Made by a program: the position numbers and the translations under genes
Origin: Flavobacteriaceae bacterium GF1
Lineage (GTDB): Bacteria; Bacteroidota; Bacteroidia; Flavobacteriales; Flavobacteriaceae
NCBI GenBank assembly: GCA_009797885.1
Contig: WNKP01000001.1
Span: 372,001-436,000 of the forward strand
Direction: 5' to 3'
Length of the DNA: 64,000 nucleotides
The notes under the pieces: generated by a model
Told to the model about the DNA's origin: nothing
Databases searched by the model: none
What the model saw: the letters and a program-made list of their open reading frames with translations, nothing else
Part shown: piece by piece, positions 1 to 10,344 of the stretch
Numbering within the stretch: the stretch's first letter is position 1
How the letters are laid out: each line of letters opens with the position of its first letter

Positions 1-604
1 AGGATGAAGGCCATTGGGAGAACGCTGGTGTGAACAATGATGCCCCTGGATTATTGATGGTACCGTGCCTTGGATCGGTAGCTACGGTAATGGGAATTCC
101 CAATCGCGTACGCTCCGCCATTTTTTGAATGGTATTGGCATATTTGGCCATGGATTCCGCATCCAAGGAAGCCAGAATATTAAAGCTGTTCATTTTCTTC
201 CTGGCAATCATTTCAGAATTGGAGGGCAGGGCAAAGGACATCATGAGCACCAAGGGGTCGGTACTTAACACCGGGGTTTCCATAGGTTCCCCCTTAGGTG
301 TGGTTCCTATCATGGTCACAAACATGGTACCTGCCTTTTCTTCAAGGGTCATTTGATCGACCAAATCGTTGACGCGCGCTTCAATGGGTGCAGTGGGATT
401 TTCATAAACGTCCAATTTTCCGTTCTTGTTCAAATCCCTAAAACGGATTCCTTTTTCATTCAAAACTGCAGCTTCCCCACCCAAGAGTTTCATGTTCTTA
501 TTGGAAGCACTCTTCTTGGTAAAATAGAAGATTCCAGCGCCAACTACAATAATCGAAAGCACGGCAATGAGGATATATTTCAGAACTTTTAGAAGCTTCT
601 TCAT
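1..604 (-). CDS. Glycoside hydrolase family 3 beta-glucosidase-like protein (N-terminal part, runs off left edge)
   Basis: Read on the minus strand from an ATG at 604; 201 codons are visible and the frame stays open to base 1. Residues about 5-28 are a single hydrophobic segment, so the enzyme is probably anchored in a membrane and faces the periplasm. Residues 57-68 (DLNKNGKLDVYE) look like a calcium-binding EF-hand-like loop. They are followed by the GH3 entry motif RVNDLVDQMTLEEKAG (77-92) and by TRLGIPITVATDPRHG, which matches the GIPxxxxxDxxHG stretch of GH3 enzymes. The nucleophile Asp and C-terminal domain lie outside the window. Known family role: exo-hydrolysis of beta-glucosides or xylosides; the substrate here is unknown. 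It diverges from the NrtR-type regulator at 682 and probably is its target. Confidence 0.9.
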   Translation of the reverse strand, partial: MKKLLKVLKYILIAVLSIIVVGAGIFYFTKKSASNKNMKLLGGEAAVLNEKGIRFRDLNKNGKLDVYENPTAPIEARVNDLVDQMTLEEKAGTMFVTMIGTTPKGEPMETPVLSTDPLVLMMSFALPSNSEMIARKKMNSFNILASLDAESMAKYANTIQKMAERTRLGIPITVATDPRHGTINNPGASLFTPAFSQWPSS

Positions 605-1622: not shown

Positions 1623-3698
1623 ATGAAAGCCCCCTTCTTCTTCATAATTCTTTTGACCTGTTTTCTGACTTTTTCTCAAAGTCAACAATTGGATTCCATC
1701 AATACATTGGATGAAGTGACCCTGATTGAGGAATTCATTACCAAAAAGGCTGTGGGCATTACGGAATCGTCCAGTTTGGGGGTGGCGGATTTAGAGCAGT
1801 TCAGTCCCATTGATTTTGCAGGGGGATTAAACCAAATTTCTGGATTGTATGTGCTTTCCGGTGCCCTGAACACCAACCGCATTACCATTCGTGGTGTTGG
1901 CGCAAGAACCCCTTTTGGCACGGATAAGCTTCGTCTTTACTTCAACGGGATTCCAGTAACCAATGGCACAGGGGTTTCCACCATTGAAGCCTATGATTTT
2001 GAAAACATGGGTCGTATTGAAGTGGTCAAAGGCCCAAAAGGGACCGCTTTGGGGGCCAATCTGGGGGGTGCCATTGTTTTAAATACCAAACCTCCCCAAG
2101 TAGGAAGGACCTTTTTAGGAAATAGCTTCACTTTTGGTTCCTTTACTACCCTAAAGAACAATTTGGCCTTTCGCCATTCCGAAAAAAACTTCAACATCAA
2201 TTTTAGTTACAATCATCTGCAAACTGATGGGTTTCGACAAAACAACAGCTTTGAACGTGATGGTTTTTTGCTCACCTCATCCGCACGATTGAATGATAAG
2301 GGGAAAATGGATTTTTTAATCAACCATATCGATTATACAGCCGGTATTCCCAGTTCCATCAATGAAACCGATTTTAGGGAAAACCCGAGGCGTGCGGCAG
2401 CCAACTGGCTTGCCGCCAGGGGGTTTGAAGATAATAGGTATACCTTGGCGGGCATCTCTTATGGCCATCGGTTCAATCAAAAGCTAAGGACCACCAATAG
2501 TATTTTTTACACCTATTTGGACCATTTTGAGCCCAGGCCCTTCAACATCCTGGATGAGTTTACCCATGGTTTTGGATTCCGATCGGTAACGGAGGGAAAA
2601 TTGTTCAAAGGCGATTTCACCATTGGTGGCGAACTGTACAGGGATGAGTACAACTGGCAGACTTTTGTAAATGAGTTTCGGGATAATGATGGCAATGGAA
2701 GTCTGCAGGGGGAACGGCTTAGTGAAAACAAGGAATTCCGTTCCCAATTGAACCTTTTTGGAGGATATACCTTTCCTATTGCCAACAATCTGCAGGCACA
2801 AGTGGGCCTTAATTTCAACAAAACGGATTATGATTTCAGGGATTTGTTCAACTCCGGTGAAGAAAACACTTCTGCCCAACGGGATTTTGACCCGATTCTA
2901 TTACCAAGTTTTGGTTTGGTCTACGAGGTGGACTATGGTCGGTTCTTTGCCAATGCAAGTAGGGGGTTTTCCAATCCTGGCCTGGAAGAAACCTTAACTC
3001 CGGATGGCGTTATCAATCCAACCATAGAACAGGAAAAGGGATGGAGCTATGAACTTGGAAGTGTTCTTACGCTATGGAACAAAAAACTGAATTTGGGAAT
3101 TTCCCTGTACCAGATGGATATTACGGATCTGTTGGTTGCGGAGCGGATTGATGAAGACTTATTTATAGGACGAAATGCCGGTGAGACCAAACATCAAGGC
3201 ATTGAATTGGATGCTTCCTACAGCGGTAACCTTGCCCAAAATTGGTACGTAATCCCACGAATCAGCTACAGCTATAGCAACCATACGTTTGTGGATTTTT
3301 TGGATGGGGACAATGACTTTTCGGGGAATAACCTGGCCGGTGTACCGAGACATCGGATCAATTCCGGTATCACCGTCAGAAATGCCAGTGGCATTGTATT
3401 TAACCTTACCCACCAATTTGTGGATGAAATCCCTTTAACCGATGCCAATACCCTTTTTAGCGAATCCTTTAATGTCTTCAATGCCCAACTCCGTTATCGT
3501 ACCCAGGTCTTGGATAAATTCCATATTGGATTGAATGCTGGCGTAAACAACCTTTTCAACACCAACTTTGCCCAGTCCGTTTTGGTGAACGCCGTCGGTT
3601 TTGGTGGCAACCAACCACGATTTTTCTTCCCAGGAAACGGAATCAACTACTTTGCCGGGGTCCAATTGCAATATCGTTTCAGGAATTCGATTGATTAA
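1623..3698 (+). CDS. TonB-dependent outer-membrane receptor
   Basis: 691 aa with a signal peptide (residues 1-20, cleavage near SQSQQ). A plug domain follows at about 35-150, containing the typical stretches ITIRGVGAR, LYFNGIPV, IEVVKGPKG and LGGAIVLNT. The rest is a beta-barrel ending in an aromatic-rich strand (GVQLQYRFRNSID). There is no N-terminal carboxypeptidase-like domain and no SusD partner, so it resembles small-ligand or siderophore receptors rather than SusC. It is the first gene of a same-strand run: 66 bp to the kinase/phospholyase fusion, 58 bp to the phosphatase-like lipoprotein, then an overlap with the VOC gene. Its ligand may therefore be the compound that the fusion enzyme breaks down; this is inference. 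Confidence 0.93.
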   Translation: MKAPFFFIILLTCFLTFSQSQQLDSINTLDEVTLIEEFITKKAVGITESSSLGVADLEQFSPIDFAGGLNQISGLYVLSGALNTNRITIRGVGARTPFGTDKLRLYFNGIPVTNGTGVSTIEAYDFENMGRIEVVKGPKGTALGANLGGAIVLNTKPPQVGRTFLGNSFTFGSFTTLKNNLAFRHSEKNFNINFSYNHLQTDGFRQNNSFERDGFLLTSSARLNDKGKMDFLINHIDYTAGIPSSINETDFRENPRRAAANWLAARGFEDNRYTLAGISYGHRFNQKLRTTNSIFYTYLDHFEPRPFNILDEFTHGFGFRSVTEGKLFKGDFTIGGELYRDEYNWQTFVNEFRDNDGNGSLQGERLSENKEFRSQLNLFGGYTFPIANNLQAQVGLNFNKTDYDFRDLFNSGEENTSAQRDFDPILLPSFGLVYEVDYGRFFANASRGFSNPGLEETLTPDGVINPTIEQEKGWSYELGSVLTLWNKKLNLGISLYQMDITDLLVAERIDEDLFIGRNAGETKHQGIELDASYSGNLAQNWYVIPRISYSYSNHTFVDFLDGDNDFSGNNLAGVPRHRINSGITVRNASGIVFNLTHQFVDEIPLTDANTLFSESFNVFNAQLRYRTQVLDKFHIGLNAGVNNLFNTNFAQSVLVNAVGFGGNQPRFFFPGNGINYFAGVQLQYRFRNSID

Positions 3699-3764
3699 GC
3701 CAGCTGAACACCTTAATTTTAACCTACTACACCAAAACTCAAAAGCAGTAGGATATACCTAAGA

Positions 3765-6047
3765 ATGGAATTTAAGATCATTACAGCGATTCTTCAAGAG
3801 GAGTTCGGGCTAAAGGAGGTCACGGTAAAACCGTTATACGGTTACGACAACAAAAACTATTTGGTGCGCTCTTCCCAAGGGAAGTGTATTTTCAAAACCT
3901 ATTCCAACTATAAAGGCCTTTTGGAAGTTCTTGAAGCCGAAAATCAATTGCTACTTCACCTCCAATCCAAAGGATTTCAAGAAGTTCCCAAACCTATTCC
4001 CTTTGTGGATGGTACCTTCCTAAAAGTTTTAACGATTGGGGAACAGTCCAATCCCTGCCGGTTATTGACCTTTGTTGAAGGTACTTTTATGGGGGATGCC
4101 CCCCTTAATTCCGATATCATTTGTGCTTTGGGACATTATGCGGGCCAATTGGACAGGGCTTTATTGGATTTTGACCATGTGGCACTCCGGGCCCGGACAT
4201 GGGAATGGGATTTGCAATCCGTTCAGCTCAATAAGAAGTATTTGACTGCCATTGCTTCCCCCAAAAAGCGCAATTTGGTTTCCTACTTTTTTCAGCAATA
4301 TGAATATCAGGTATTGCCCCTACTGCCCCAACTTCGGAAGGCGACCATCCATAATGACTTAAACGAATGGAATATCCTTGTTCAGGGAAACAACGTCCTT
4401 GGCGTTATTGATTTTGGGGATTGTACCCATTCACAACTCATCAATGAGGTAGCCATTATGGCAACCTATGTTTTCTATACCAGCAAAGAACCGCTACAGT
4501 GGGCCGAACCCTTATTGGGGTCCTATCATAGCGTACTGCCTTTGGAGGAAAAGGAGATTTCCGTGCTCTACTACCTTATTGCCATGCGTTTATGTACCAG
4601 CGTTTGCAATTCTGCCCACGCTGCCGCAAATGATCCCAACAACACCTATGCTTCGGTCAGTGAGGAAAAAGCCTGGATCCTGTTGTACAAATGGCTTGAA
4701 ATTGGTGCAGTAAAGGCCGAAAACTCCTTCCGGAAGGCAGTTGGACTGCCCAAAAAAGATACACCCTCCACTGCACATGCCCTGGACGGTCGAAAAAAAC
4801 ACCTGAGCGCTATTCTTTCCATTAGCTACAAAAAGCCCATTCTTATGCAGCGAGCTGCATTCCAATACATGTTTGACCATGAGGGAAATTCGTTCTTGGA
4901 TGCTTACAACAATATTCCCCATGTGGGGCATCAACATCCTATGGTCGTAGAAGCTGGACAACGTCAAATGGGCAAATTGAATACCAACACCAGGTACCTG
5001 TATGACCTATTGCCAGCCTATGCGGAACGTTTACTGGCCAAGTTCCCCAAATCCCTGAACAAGGTATTTTTGGTGAACTCGGGCAGCGCAGCCAGTGATT
5101 TGGCCATTCGGTTGGCAAAAGCCCATACAGGGTTTCAAGACCTTTTGGTGATGGAACATGGGTATCATGGGAATACCCAAATAGGTATCAATATCAGTGA
5201 TTATAAATTCAATCATCCCAAGGGTCAGGGGCAATCGTCCCATATCCATAAAACCATTTTACCGGATACCTATCGCGGACAATACCATAAAAACGATGGA
5301 ACCGCGGGAAAGGCCTATGCACATGAGGCGATCCGTAACCTTAAAAGCCTTTCGCAACCCTTGGCCGTGTTTATCTCGGAACCCGTTGTGGGTTGTGGTG
5401 GTCAGGTCCCTTTGGCAAAGGGTTATTTAAAGCCCCTCTACAGCACCATTCGAGAACAAGGAGGTGTTTGTATCAGCGATGAGGTGCAAACCGGATTTGG
5501 CAGGTTGGGGGACGTTTTTTGGGGTTTTGAACAGCAGGATGTGGTCCCGGATATTGTGGTATTGGGGAAACCCATGGGCAACGGACACCCCATAGGGGCC
5601 GTAGTGACCACAGCGGAAATTGCTGCCTCTTTTGAAAAAGGGGTTGAATTTTTTAGCTCCTTTGGCGGTAATCCGGTTTCCTGTGCCATCGGCATGGCCG
5701 TTTTAGAAGTTATGGAACAGGAAAAACTACAGGAAAATGCCTTGGAAGTGGGCAACCATTATATGAAGCTGTTAAAAGAGTTGGGAAAGGAACACGCCTG
5801 TATTGGTGATGTACGGGGATCGGGGCTTTTTATCGGTATGGATATGGTCCGGGAAGGTTCCAAGGAAGCCCATACCGCCTTGGCACAACATCTAAAAAAT
5901 GCCCTCCGGGAGCAGTATATCCTGGTGAGTACCGACGGTCCCTATGACAACGTCATTAAAAGCAAACCCCCCTTGTGCTTTACCAAAGCCAATGCGGAAA
6001 AAGTAGTGGACCATATTCGGGGGATTTTAAAAGGATATAAAGCTTAG
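3765..6047 (+). CDS. Fusion of hydroxylysine-kinase-like (APH fold) and class III aminotransferase-like phospholyase
   Basis: 760 aa. Residues 1 to about 315 are an APH-fold kinase with catalytic loop [12 protein letters not shown] (D198, N203; Gly of HGD replaced by Asn) and metal site VIDFGD (D216). From memory, it follows human hydroxylysine kinase along its length ([28 protein letters not shown]). Residues about 340-760 are a PLP fold-type I domain with the Schiff-base lysine in [13 protein letters not shown] (K602), plus [25 protein letters not shown] and [10 protein letters not shown], features of the phosphoethanolamine / 5-phosphohydroxylysine phospholyases. Known chemistry: the kinase phosphorylates an amino alcohol, then the lyase removes ammonia and phosphate to give an aldehyde. 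One chain could do both steps. Substrate (hydroxylysine, ethanolamine or other) is not decided by sequence. Cytoplasmic. Confidence 0.88.
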
Positions 6048-6105
6048 CAGAATCCCGATCATTTCATATTTTTAAGGTTCGACAACCCAATAAATAACAT
6101 TTTTA

Positions 6106-7569
6106 ATGAAAAAAATCACCTTGCTATGCTTGATAGCCAGCATAGTGCTTTCCTGTAAAAACGATTCCAATAAGCCCAAAAGTGAAGCTCCAGAACCCAA
6201 AGGAGTGGAAAATGTTGCCTATAAATGGGGAGAGATGGCTTTGGAAGCCACGGCTTTGGACACGGAACGATTTAACCCCAGACCTACAATCACCTCTCGT
6301 TATTTAGGACTCATATTTACGGCTGTTTTTGATGCTTGGTCCCGTTTTGACGATAAAGCAACCCCTGTTTATCTGAATGGTGTGGAACGCAGGCCATTGG
6401 ACGAAATGACCTTAAAAAACAAGGAAATTGCCATTAGTTATGCTGCACTGCGAACCATGAACGAGTATTACTATACGGACAGCGCATTATTTGAAAAATT
6501 CATGAAAGAGGAACTGGGGTTAAACCCCATGGATACGTCAATGGACCCTACTACTCCGGTCGGAATAGGAAATCTTGCCGCCAAAGCGGTCATTGAAGCG
6601 CGCAAAGGGGATGGCGCCAACCAATATGGGGAAGAGGAAGGTTCCAATGGGGAGGCCTATTTCAATTATGTGGGTTATGAGCCTGTAAATTCCGCAGATA
6701 AAAACGTGGACATCAACCGTTGGCAGCCCAAGTATTTTTCAGATGGACAAGGCGGCAAGTTCGCCCCTGGATGCCTTACCCCCTTTTGGGACAAAGTGAA
6801 GCCCATTGCCTTAAAATCCGGGGACCAATTTAGACCCGGACCACCCCCTTTGGTCGGTTCGGAACAATTGAAAAACGAAGTCGCGGAAGTAGTGGAATTA
6901 CAGGCCAAGTTGACCGATGAGGAAAAAGCTTTGGTGGAGTTTATGCGAGATGGTCCAAAATCCGTTCAACAAGCAGGGCATTGGTTAAAATTTGCCCAGG
7001 ACGTTTCCCGAAGGGACAATCATGTCCTGGACCAGGATGTAAAGATGTATTTCTACAACCAGGTCGTCGCAATGGATGCCTTTATTGCTTCCTGGGATTC
7101 AAAAATGTTTTATGATTACGCCAGGCCCTATGCCCTTGTGCATGAATATTATGGGGGCAAGACCATCACCGGTTGGGGCGGGCCCGGAAAGGGAATGATC
7201 GAAATGGACGGTAACCAATGGCGGCCGTATTCCCCGGATGTCTTTCTATGTCCTCCTTTTCCCAGTTATACATCGGGCCATAGTACCATTAGTGGAGGCT
7301 GCGGGGAGGCGCTAAAACTATGGACGGGCAGTGATGAATTTGGTGAAGAAGTAGAATTGGTTGCCGGTGCCCTCACACATCCAAACCATCCGGGGGATAC
7401 CGTAACCTTAAAATTCCCAACTTTTACTAAAACCGCCGAAATGGCAGGAATATCCAGGGTTATGGGAGGTTACCATGTCCAGGCCGATAATGTTGCTGGA
7501 TTGCAACTGGGGCGTGATGTTGCCCATGAGGTCTGGAAATTTTATCAGAAACATATTGGCGATGAGTAA
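6106..7569 (+). CDS. PAP2 / vanadium haloperoxidase-type lipoprotein
   Basis: 487 aa lipoprotein: hydrophobic signal, lipobox ending at C17 (SIVLSCKND). The three active-site blocks of the acid phosphatase / vanadium haloperoxidase superfamily are present near the C-terminus. They are K333 and R340-P341 (KMFYDYARP), S390-G391-H392 (PSYTSGHST), and R451, H457, D461 (RVMGGYHVQAD). Known family members either hydrolyse phosphoesters or, with bound vanadate, oxidise halides; the residues alone do not separate the two. It sits 58 bp after the kinase/phospholyase fusion and overlaps the VOC gene by 8 bases, so it is probably co-transcribed. A periplasmic phosphatase that releases the amino alcohol for uptake would fit, as inference. 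Confidence 0.86.
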   Translation: MKKITLLCLIASIVLSCKNDSNKPKSEAPEPKGVENVAYKWGEMALEATALDTERFNPRPTITSRYLGLIFTAVFDAWSRFDDKATPVYLNGVERRPLDEMTLKNKEIAISYAALRTMNEYYYTDSALFEKFMKEELGLNPMDTSMDPTTPVGIGNLAAKAVIEARKGDGANQYGEEEGSNGEAYFNYVGYEPVNSADKNVDINRWQPKYFSDGQGGKFAPGCLTPFWDKVKPIALKSGDQFRPGPPPLVGSEQLKNEVAEVVELQAKLTDEEKALVEFMRDGPKSVQQAGHWLKFAQDVSRRDNHVLDQDVKMYFYNQVVAMDAFIASWDSKMFYDYARPYALVHEYYGGKTITGWGGPGKGMIEMDGNQWRPYSPDVFLCPPFPSYTSGHSTISGGCGEALKLWTGSDEFGEEVELVAGALTHPNHPGDTVTLKFPTFTKTAEMAGISRVMGGYHVQADNVAGLQLGRDVAHEVWKFYQKHIGDE

Positions 7570-7909
7570 AAACACCCCTATCAACTATGTGGAGTTTAAG
7601 GCCAAAAACCTTGAAGAAATCAAAAGCTTTTATGGGGAAGCCTTTGGTTGGAAATTCACGGATTATGGCCCAACCTATACCGCTTTTTCAGAAAGTGGCG
7701 TGGAAGGTGGTTTTGAATTGAGCAAAGAACCTATTGTAAACGGGGCACTTGTGGTGTTGCACCATGACAATCTGGAAGCCATTAAAGAAAAAGTGATGGG
7801 TTTGGGCGCTGAAATCGCTGTGGACATCTTCTCGTTTCCTGGGGGTAGACGTTTTCATTTTCTGGACCCCTCTGGAAATGAGTTGGCCATTTGGACCGAA
7901 ATCCAATGA
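7562..7909 (+). CDS. VOC (glyoxalase/bleomycin-resistance) superfamily protein
   Basis: 115 aa from the ATG at 7562, which overlaps the end of the upstream gene by 8 bases. An in-frame ATG further upstream (7475) lies inside that gene and gives an unrelated N-terminus. Recognisable VOC pieces: NYVEFKAKNLEEIKSFYGEAFGW at the start (first beta-alpha-beta module), then GGFEL, and the closing FHFLDPSGNELAIW. The family binds a divalent metal and acts on small molecules; the substrate cannot be told. The overlap suggests translation coupled to the PAP2-type gene. Confidence 0.85.
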   Translation: MSKNTPINYVEFKAKNLEEIKSFYGEAFGWKFTDYGPTYTAFSESGVEGGFELSKEPIVNGALVVLHHDNLEAIKEKVMGLGAEIAVDIFSFPGGRRFHFLDPSGNELAIWTEIQ

Positions 7910-8089: not shown

Positions 8090-8118
8090 AAAAGCGTCCG
8101 CCTAAGGCGGACGCTTTT
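8090..8118. terminator. Bidirectional intrinsic terminator
   Basis: Perfect 13-bp stem: AAAAGCGTCCGCC at 8090-8102 pairs with GGCGGACGCTTTT at 8106-8118 around a TAA loop. The A and T ends give a U-tract in both directions. It separates the convergent VOC gene (ends 7909) and katG (ends 8149). Confidence 0.88.

Positions 8119-8148: not shown

Positions 8149-10344
<2,196 letters not shown>

Follow-up and report, generated by a model that had tools for sequence, protein, structure and literature searches.

Gene organization of the locus

The window, namely the whole stretch of 64,000 nucleotides analyzed here (contig WNKP01000001.1 of Flavobacteriaceae bacterium GF1), carries the following genes and features around the fusion gene of interest.

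682-1476, + strand: NUDIX plus NrtR/AraR-type winged-helix regulator, upstream neighbour of the receptor gene (Pfam)
1623-3698, + strand: TonB-dependent receptor (Pfam TonB_dep_Rec_b-barrel and Plug)
3765-6047, + strand: predicted fusion of an APH kinase and a class-III PLP phospholyase, 760 aa (Pfam, PDB relatives, AlphaFold)
3840-4529, + strand: APH kinase domain of the fusion, residues 26-255 (Pfam APH, 5.6e-22)
4836-6026, + strand: class-III PLP domain of the fusion, residues 358-754 (Pfam Aminotran_3, 3.1e-73)
6106-7569, + strand: vanadium-haloperoxidase-type (VHPO) PAP2 protein (Pfam DUF6851, VCPO_2nd and PAP2)
7562-7909, + strand: VOC (glyoxalase-fold) protein, 115 aa (Pfam Glyoxalase)
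8090-8118, scored on the - strand: strong hairpin between the VOC gene and the convergent katG
8149-10323, - strand: katG, convergent to the VOC gene

The first-pass annotation described the receptor, fusion, PAP2/VHPO and VOC genes as a tightly spaced row, and this arrangement was confirmed, with all four on the + strand: the receptor and fusion genes are separated by 66 bases, the fusion and VHPO genes by 58 bases, and the VOC gene, started at the ATG at 7562, overlaps the VHPO gene by 8 bases. The start listed for the VOC ORF (7475) falls within the VHPO gene, and the ATG at 7562 is the plausible start instead. As the spacing is tight, the four genes are likely cotranscribed. The hairpin lies 3' of the VOC gene and was assigned to katG on the - strand by the terminator scan; it may double as the end of the + strand operon. 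The NUDIX/NrtR-type regulator gene occupies the same position in four of the ten stretches compared (the window, L122, L123 and L125).

The third gene of the row had been regarded as encoding a PAP2/haloperoxidase-type lipoprotein. The haloperoxidase part of this assignment held, as K-x6-RP, SGH and SR-x5-H, which we take to be the vanadate-pocket motifs of haloperoxidases, are complete in all nine VHPO orthologues of the genus, and all 15 solved relatives (E <= 0.1) bear haloperoxidase or NapH names. The lipoprotein part did not fare as well: the N-terminus resembles a lipoprotein signal by eye, but the strict lipobox pattern gave no match.

Domains, residues and nearest relatives of the fusion

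The presence of a kinase-like and a phospholyase-like domain in one chain, as previously annotated, was borne out by the Pfam matches, and the AlphaFold model is a single confident two-domain chain (mean pLDDT of 91.1 and pTM of 0.91). The homologue search retrieved 129 relatives, of which the best 80 were used as named loci and analyzed together with the window (81 loci in total). K44, D198, N203 and D216 of the kinase domain are present in all of the 81 aligned fusions and H196 in 75 of them; we presume that these five residues belong to the kinase catalytic motifs. Likewise, D572 and K602 of the PLP domain were found in 81 of 81. K602, presumably the Schiff-base lysine, sits in the motif GKPMGNGHP, and among the six class-III proteins found in the GF1 genome, GKPxGNGHP occurs in the fusion alone. 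The nearest solved relatives of the PLP domain in the PDB search are both phospholyases (6TOR with 411.9 bits and 5G4I with 311.1 bits), while the third-ranked entry for the fusion, a racemase, scored only 197.5 bits; Foldseek also placed 6TOR and 5G4I at the top. The kinase domain alone gave three weak matches in the PDB (a homoserine kinase and two amicoumacin kinases). Judged from the alignment, neither domain has lost its catalytic residues, and the reading of the fusion as a putative kinase followed by an eliminating enzyme is therefore well founded.

One may still suspect that the fusion is simply a class-III aminotransferase of the ordinary sort whose kinase domain has degenerated, since the related genes on plasmids are annotated as aminotransferase and class III consists mostly of aminotransferases (PMC8154272). 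With four kinase residues invariant across the 81 fusions and a PLP domain far nearer to phospholyases than to any listed solved transaminase, we regard this reading as extremely unlikely.

Conservation of the neighbours in the genus and beyond

The first-pass annotation proposed a four-gene route of release, uptake, phosphorylation and elimination, and set the conservation of the four genes together as a test beforehand. In the genus sample of 11 genomes (five stretches of which are also named loci and were counted once: L123=L039, L124=L035, L125=L036, L126=L037 and L127=L099), the strict order of receptor, fusion, VHPO and VOC appeared in three, all close kin with fusions 93-100% identical; the order is thus largely not conserved. 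The fusion was detected in eight, a receptor orthologue (at least 54%) in nine and VHPO in nine of the 11 genomes. Six possess all three; in five of these, the genes adjoin one another or have only a GH97 gene in between, and in the sixth (G682) they are split by a contig end. Each of the three genes also occurs without the others. The receptor is found without the fusion in G164, G680 and G684, VHPO directly following the receptor in G164, which has no fusion at all. G687 and G679 possess the fusion without an orthologous receptor, and in the latter VHPO adjoins a GH97 gene on a contig other than that of the fusion.

Among the 81 loci, some of which are cut by contig ends, the receptor and VHPO are each found no more than two genes away from the fusion in five, all belonging to one cluster of near relatives, and beyond this cluster no examined named locus has receptor-, VHPO- or VOC-type neighbours within six genes. 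No universal partner gene of the fusion was found in the 81 loci; the largest common neighbour group covers 11 of them and mostly reflects eight Aquimarina loci. At least one same-strand neighbour lies within 150 bases of the fusion in 65 of the 81 loci, with varying partners, suggesting that the fusion elsewhere often forms part of an operon whose other members change.

These data bear on the possibility that the genes form one operon dedicated to an amino alcohol, which would be released by the PAP2/VHPO protein, taken up through the receptor, and then phosphorylated and cleaved by the fusion. The common strand, the short gaps and the five genus genomes with the genes contiguous or interrupted only by GH97 are consistent with it. 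On the other hand, the receptor-VHPO pair without the fusion, the unpaired receptors and fusions, the restriction to a single cluster and the haloperoxidase or NapH names of all solved VHPO relatives argue against it, and we consider such an operon quite unlikely. As the gene order is largely not conserved in the genus-mates, a dedicated four-gene pathway is not supported, albeit a lineage-specific functional link among the receptor, fusion and VHPO may exist. The four-gene set was not recognised in the titles and opening parts of abstracts among the matches listed in a literature search. Close spacing of four genes in one species can thus be misleading, as the genes reshuffle independently within its own genus.

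Identity of the receptor

At E <= 1e-5, the receptor has no solved relatives other than two E. coli YncD/PqqU entries (about 102 bits), raising the alternative that it imports PQQ, with no connection to amino alcohols, for PQQ-dependent dehydrogenases encoded near the slot. Genes for such dehydrogenases indeed lie shortly upstream in L124, L129 and L142, as well as in L127, which is without the receptor. The PqqU signature consists of Y/F/W99, R304 and R365 (PMC12124388); in a pairwise alignment with positions counted by hand, the aromatic residue at 99 is F, R365 is aligned with Q, and R304 falls in a gapped stretch with no aligned Arg. Furthermore, the receptor scored 150.6 bits against the NCBIfam PqqU model, of which the cut-off is 1200, and a search of the GF1 genome restricted to PF13360, a family other than the dehydrogenase family PF01011, returned a single match of 33.3 bits. 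Altogether, a PQQ importer is an unlikely identity for this receptor.

GH97 genes in the slot

A GH97 gene is adjacent to the fusion or one gene off in five loci. It lies between the receptor and the fusion in L125 and L038 and directly beside the fusion in L126; in two Eudoraea loci it is adjacent or one gene off on the opposite strand. In G685, the GH97 gene of the slot is the sole GH97 match. These positions would fit a slot for a glycosylated amino alcohol (e.g., glucosyl-galactosyl-hydroxylysine of animal collagen), in which GH97 trims the sugar, the receptor imports and the fusion degrades hydroxylysine, GH97 having been lost from the window. Nevertheless, G684 has GH97 together with the receptor and no fusion, GH97 and VHPO stand apart from the fusion in G679, the GH97 search of the GF1 genome gave no match, and no collagenase or beta-galactosidase was recognised among the slot genes scanned. 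No bacterial route of this kind appeared in the titles among the literature matches listed. We judge this reading highly improbable. It is likewise very unlikely that, in this Croceivirga-like lineage, the fusion was co-opted by a cassette for scavenging at the outer membrane (TonB receptor, GH97 glycosidase or haloperoxidase, and kinase-phospholyase), with a glycosylated amino alcohol (e.g., the collagen glucosyl-galactosyl-hydroxylysine of a marine animal host) as its substrate.

Distribution of the fused and split forms

In 79 of the 80 named loci, the match spans nearly the whole query, starting at 1-26 and ending at 748 or later, and L079 is truncated by a contig end; the fusion is thus not a chance feature. 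Matches were detected in 113 of 299 sampled genomes of the family (E <= 1e-60, own genome included) and in 51 of 395 genomes of the phylum (E <= 1e-80). By hand count, 38 of the 113 are full-length two-domain proteins (three of them with flagged internal stops), 67 have frames of roughly 1000 aa or longer, and eight are partial or other cases. Three of the 67 were scanned and have an APH-M23-Aminotran_3 architecture.

The plasmid search retrieved 381 matching records, 48 of which cover at least 80% of the query. In 33 of the best 40 records, a phosphotransferase and an aminotransferase lie under the match as two separate features. The two halves are directly adjacent in seven of the eight regions examined; a GntR regulator accompanies the pair, split or fused, in six, and ABC-transporter genes occur in four (H1, H13, H19 and H32; the sulfonate transporter of H22 was left out). 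No substrate-fixing gene was found in the eight regions. EutB had no match in the GF1 genome, a result that favours neither hydroxylysine nor ethanolamine.

Proposed function

From the two domains observed in one chain, their catalytic residues and their nearest relatives, we infer the reactions, their order and the substrate as follows. In the first step, the APH domain at the N-terminus would transfer phosphate from ATP to the hydroxyl group of a small amino alcohol, such as 5-hydroxylysine, ethanolamine or a similar compound. In the second, the PLP domain at the C-terminus would remove phosphate together with ammonia, yielding an aldehyde. The fusion would act with no need of the adjoining genes. 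Between the exonuclease III gene and katG, the genus would have a variable slot, usually with the TonB receptor first and with species-dependent cargo; the receptor, haloperoxidase and VOC genes would be lineage-local companions rather than obligate pathway steps. Thus, we propose with good confidence that the fusion is a bifunctional amino-alcohol kinase/ammoniophospholyase of a known kind, independent of its neighbours; as far as the genomic data indicate, it is probably a stand-alone catabolic enzyme placed within a variable slot. Fusions of this kind are found repeatedly in Bacteroidota, and the split relatives on plasmids are annotated merely as aminotransferase and phosphotransferase. 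If the function of one fusion were established, many annotations would be sharpened and the amino alcohol degraded by marine bacteria revealed.

Comparison with known enzymes and models

The first-pass annotation knew of no described system of this kind, which fails for the fusion itself: the type is already known, as there is an NCBIfam model covering both the kinase and the PLP part, and split pairs reside on plasmids. The fusion matched NF004799/PRK06148 and NF004800/PRK06149, which represent bacterial bi-/trifunctional APH plus class-III proteins, over the whole protein with 809.5 and 627 bits, below the curated cut-offs of 1128 and 973 bits, respectively. Its kinase part aligns to positions 10-347 and its PLP part to positions 584-1009 of PRK06148; it differs from this long form in having no central M23 domain, which the three scanned long relatives carry. 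Five of 14 control genomes also match the NCBIfam model below the cut-off, so that the E-value alone is not specific. The class-III PLP lyase acting on phosphonate (NCBIfam) belongs to the same enzyme class, but the fusion scored 191.6 bits against a cut-off of 525. The VHPO gene of the window matches vanadium-dependent haloperoxidases (9PTR and NapH1/NapH3) at 1.5e-58 to 3.3e-42.

The identification of hydroxylysine kinase in 2012 reportedly began from bacterial fusions of this type. The phospholyase A1RDF1 of Arthrobacter aurescens (5G4I) shares 38% identity with the PLP domain as well as the motif GKPMGNGHP, but is a stand-alone protein of 446 residues without a kinase domain. Human ETNPPL (6TOR), an ethanolamine-phosphate phospho-lyase, is 46% identical to the PLP domain and superposes with an rmsd of 1.8 A in the fold alignment. 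In humans, the kinase (HYKK, hydroxylysine kinase) and the lyase (ETNPPL) are separate proteins, unlike the fusion, in which a kinase domain and a phospholyase-like domain are joined in a single chain.

The gene row around the kinase/PLP fusion

The row of four genes that includes a kinase/PLP fusion, noticed in the first-pass annotation, was confirmed, with all four genes on the + strand and both Pfam domains in one chain. The features are as follows:

682-1476: NUDIX/winged-helix regulator, upstream of the receptor gene (Pfam)
1623-3698, +: TonB receptor (ORF listing)
3765-6047, +: fusion protein of 760 residues (ORF listing), with an APH domain (residues 26-255; Pfam) and an Aminotran_3 domain (residues 358-754; Pfam)
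6106-7569, +: PAP2/haloperoxidase-type protein, VHPO (ORF listing)
7562 (likely start)-7909, +: VOC protein (ORF listing and re-reading of the start)
8090-8118: strong hairpin, downstream of the VOC gene
downstream of the hairpin: katG, convergent

The VOC ORF as listed starts at 7475, within the preceding gene, and its true start is likely 7562. The gene at the left end of the window (2-604, - strand, cut) is the counterpart of a 652-residue GH3 glycoside hydrolase in another stretch (L122 14152-16110).

Enzymatic identity of the fusion

Among solved proteins, human ethanolamine-phosphate phospho-lyase matched the PLP domain best (411.9 bits), followed by Arthrobacter A1RDF1 (311.1 bits) and a racemase (197.5 bits). 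The AlphaFold model, whose input alignment took 45 of the 81 fusion sequences at hand, had a mean pLDDT of 91.1, and the top two Foldseek matches were the phospho-lyase (46% identity) and A1RDF1 (38%), the same pair as in the sequence search. In the alignment of 81 fusions (the window's and those of 80 named loci, the best 80 of 129 relatives), kinase residues K44, D198, N203, and D216 and PLP-domain residues D572 and K602 were kept in all, and H196 of the kinase in 75. Of the six class-III proteins detected in the window's genome, the fusion alone has GKPxGNGHP; a broader lysine motif had no site in three of the other five. Searched by itself, the kinase domain gave only weak matches to solved proteins (homoserine kinase and amicoumacin kinases; best 1.9e-06), so the substrate is not readable from it.

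Beyond the domain order, residues, and relatives observed directly, we infer from the two protein families that the fusion most likely acts by phosphorylation and subsequent elimination. The APH domain would phosphorylate the hydroxyl of an amino alcohol at the expense of ATP, and the PLP domain would then eliminate the phosphate with loss of ammonia, yielding an aldehyde. Hydroxylysine, ethanolamine, and other amino alcohols are all candidate substrates. No EutB match was detected in the window's genome, an absence that decides nothing between hydroxylysine and ethanolamine.

Gene order within the genus

The first-pass annotation proposed a four-gene amino-alcohol route. The four genes turned out not to be conserved together in relatives, as the strict order receptor-fusion-VHPO-VOC was found in only three of the 11 genus genomes searched (G000, the window's own, G681, and G683), with fusions at 93-100% identity to that of the window. 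The fusion was present in eight genomes, and a receptor orthologue (at least 54% identity) and VHPO in nine each; the best receptor match in G687 was 28%, elsewhere in the genome. Receptor, fusion, and VHPO co-occurred in six (G000, G681, G683, G686, G685, and G682). A hexapeptide acetyltransferase gene sits ahead of VOC in G686, while G685 has GH97 ahead of the fusion and DUF1349 behind VHPO. The order in G682 is GH97, fusion, VHPO, and DUF1349, with the receptor on a separate contig next to a GH97 fragment. Three genomes possess the receptor without the fusion: G164 (VHPO directly after the receptor, 76-base gap), G680 (receptor alone), and G684 (receptor, GH97, and DUF1349). The fusion occurs without such a receptor in G687 and G679, the latter carrying VHPO and GH97 side by side on a contig other than the fusion's. 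Altogether, the receptor was not commoner with the fusion (6/8 genomes) than in its absence (3/3).

The slot was flanked by exonuclease III and katG in seven of the 11 genomes (G681, G683, G686, G685, G684, G680, and G164, the last with two extra genes ahead of katG). The window was read on the katG side only, the slot of G682 is cut, and the stretches compared show exonuclease III only for G687 and neither flank for G679. Outside the 11 genomes, L038 carries receptor, GH97, fusion, acetyltransferase, and VOC before katG, and G201 carries receptor, a 283-residue gene (L129 7361-8212; no Pfam match), and fusion before katG. Since the genus-mates, L038, and G201 differ in gene content here, we regard the slot as holding variable cargo, with the receptor usually in first place and the fusion among the frequent inserts. 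GH97 adjoins the fusion or is one gene off in five loci, three of near relatives of the window and two of Eudoraea:

L125 6468-8582
L038 5856-7976
L126 10622-11653
L069 3947-6160
L073 5640-7802

GH97 matches numbered one in seven genus genomes, two in two, and none in two.

Neighbours beyond the genus

Across the window and the 80 named loci, some of them truncated by contig ends, receptor and VHPO were each no more than two genes away from the fusion in 5/81, and VOC no more than three genes away in 4/81. All such loci belong to one cluster of near relatives (labelled Croceivirga, Allomuricauda, or Flavobacteriaceae); no receptor-, VHPO-, or VOC-like protein was detected within six genes of the fusion in L040 to L114 (blastp, E <= 1e-5). 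A same-strand neighbour lay within 150 bases in 65/81 loci, with varying partner genes. With these neighbours restricted to near relatives in the loci compared and the genes occurring apart in genus-mates, a dedicated four-gene pathway is unsupported.

Putative roles of VHPO and the receptor

VHPO matched solved vanadium haloperoxidases (best 1.5e-58), and the vanadate-pocket motifs were kept in 9/9 genus orthologues. A possible phosphatase role in freeing amino alcohols therefore finds no support in these comparisons.

YncD/PqqU were the only solved relatives of the receptor at E <= 1e-5. The PqqU signature comprises an aromatic residue, R304, and R365 (PMC12124388). In a pairwise alignment, the receptor retains the aromatic residue, has Q at R365, and shows a gapped stretch at R304. 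On this pairwise comparison, a PQQ receptor appears unlikely. Genes for PQQ-dependent dehydrogenases lie close upstream of the slot in four stretches:

L124 15239-17452 (from the similarity of overlapping L151)
L127 12892-15060 (Pfam)
L129 966-3134 (Pfam)
L142 12713-13999 (Pfam)

Distribution of the fusion and comparison with known proteins

The fusion matched 113 of 299 sampled family genomes, the window's own included (E <= 1e-60). By hand count, 38 were full-length two-domain proteins (three, in G132, G044, and G270, flagged for internal stops), 67 had frames at least about 1000 residues long, and eight were partial or other; the three long frames scanned were all APH-M23-Aminotran_3. In the phylum sample, 51/395 genomes matched (E <= 1e-80). 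Among 381 matching plasmid records, 48 covered at least 80% of the query. The best 40 of the 381 comprised 33 with phosphotransferase and aminotransferase as separate features, three haloarchaeal ones with a single gene (two by name only), and four without usable annotation. The split genes were directly adjacent in seven of the eight plasmid regions opened; the eighth, haloarchaeal, bore a two-domain fusion.

In L136 (2087-14210), a haloarchaeal two-domain fusion is surrounded by genes for PotD-type transport, amidotransferase, and glutamine-synthetase-family proteins, which suggests a context of polyamine type. On a Comamonadaceae plasmid (L139 4859-8326), the split pair directly follows a histone-deacetylase-family gene, whose product could remove the acetyl group from an acetylated amine. 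Three MAG records under the names Alcanivoracaceae or Thalassobius (L071, L080, and L108) also hold fusions, with 50-56% identity to that of the window; these are probably binning errors.

Both parts of the window protein aligned with NCBIfam PRK06148, the kinase at model positions 10-347 and the PLP domain at 584-1009. The protein scored under the model's cut-off; 5/14 control genomes also matched, likewise under it. Veiga-da-Cunha and colleagues reportedly took such bacterial bi- and trifunctional proteins as the starting point of their 2012 study. From the alignment and the distribution over family, phylum, and plasmids, it follows that the fusion is a member of an already known kind. Thus, the first-pass reading as a kinase joined to a phospholyase is likely right, given the domain order, residues, and relatives, albeit for a known kind of protein.
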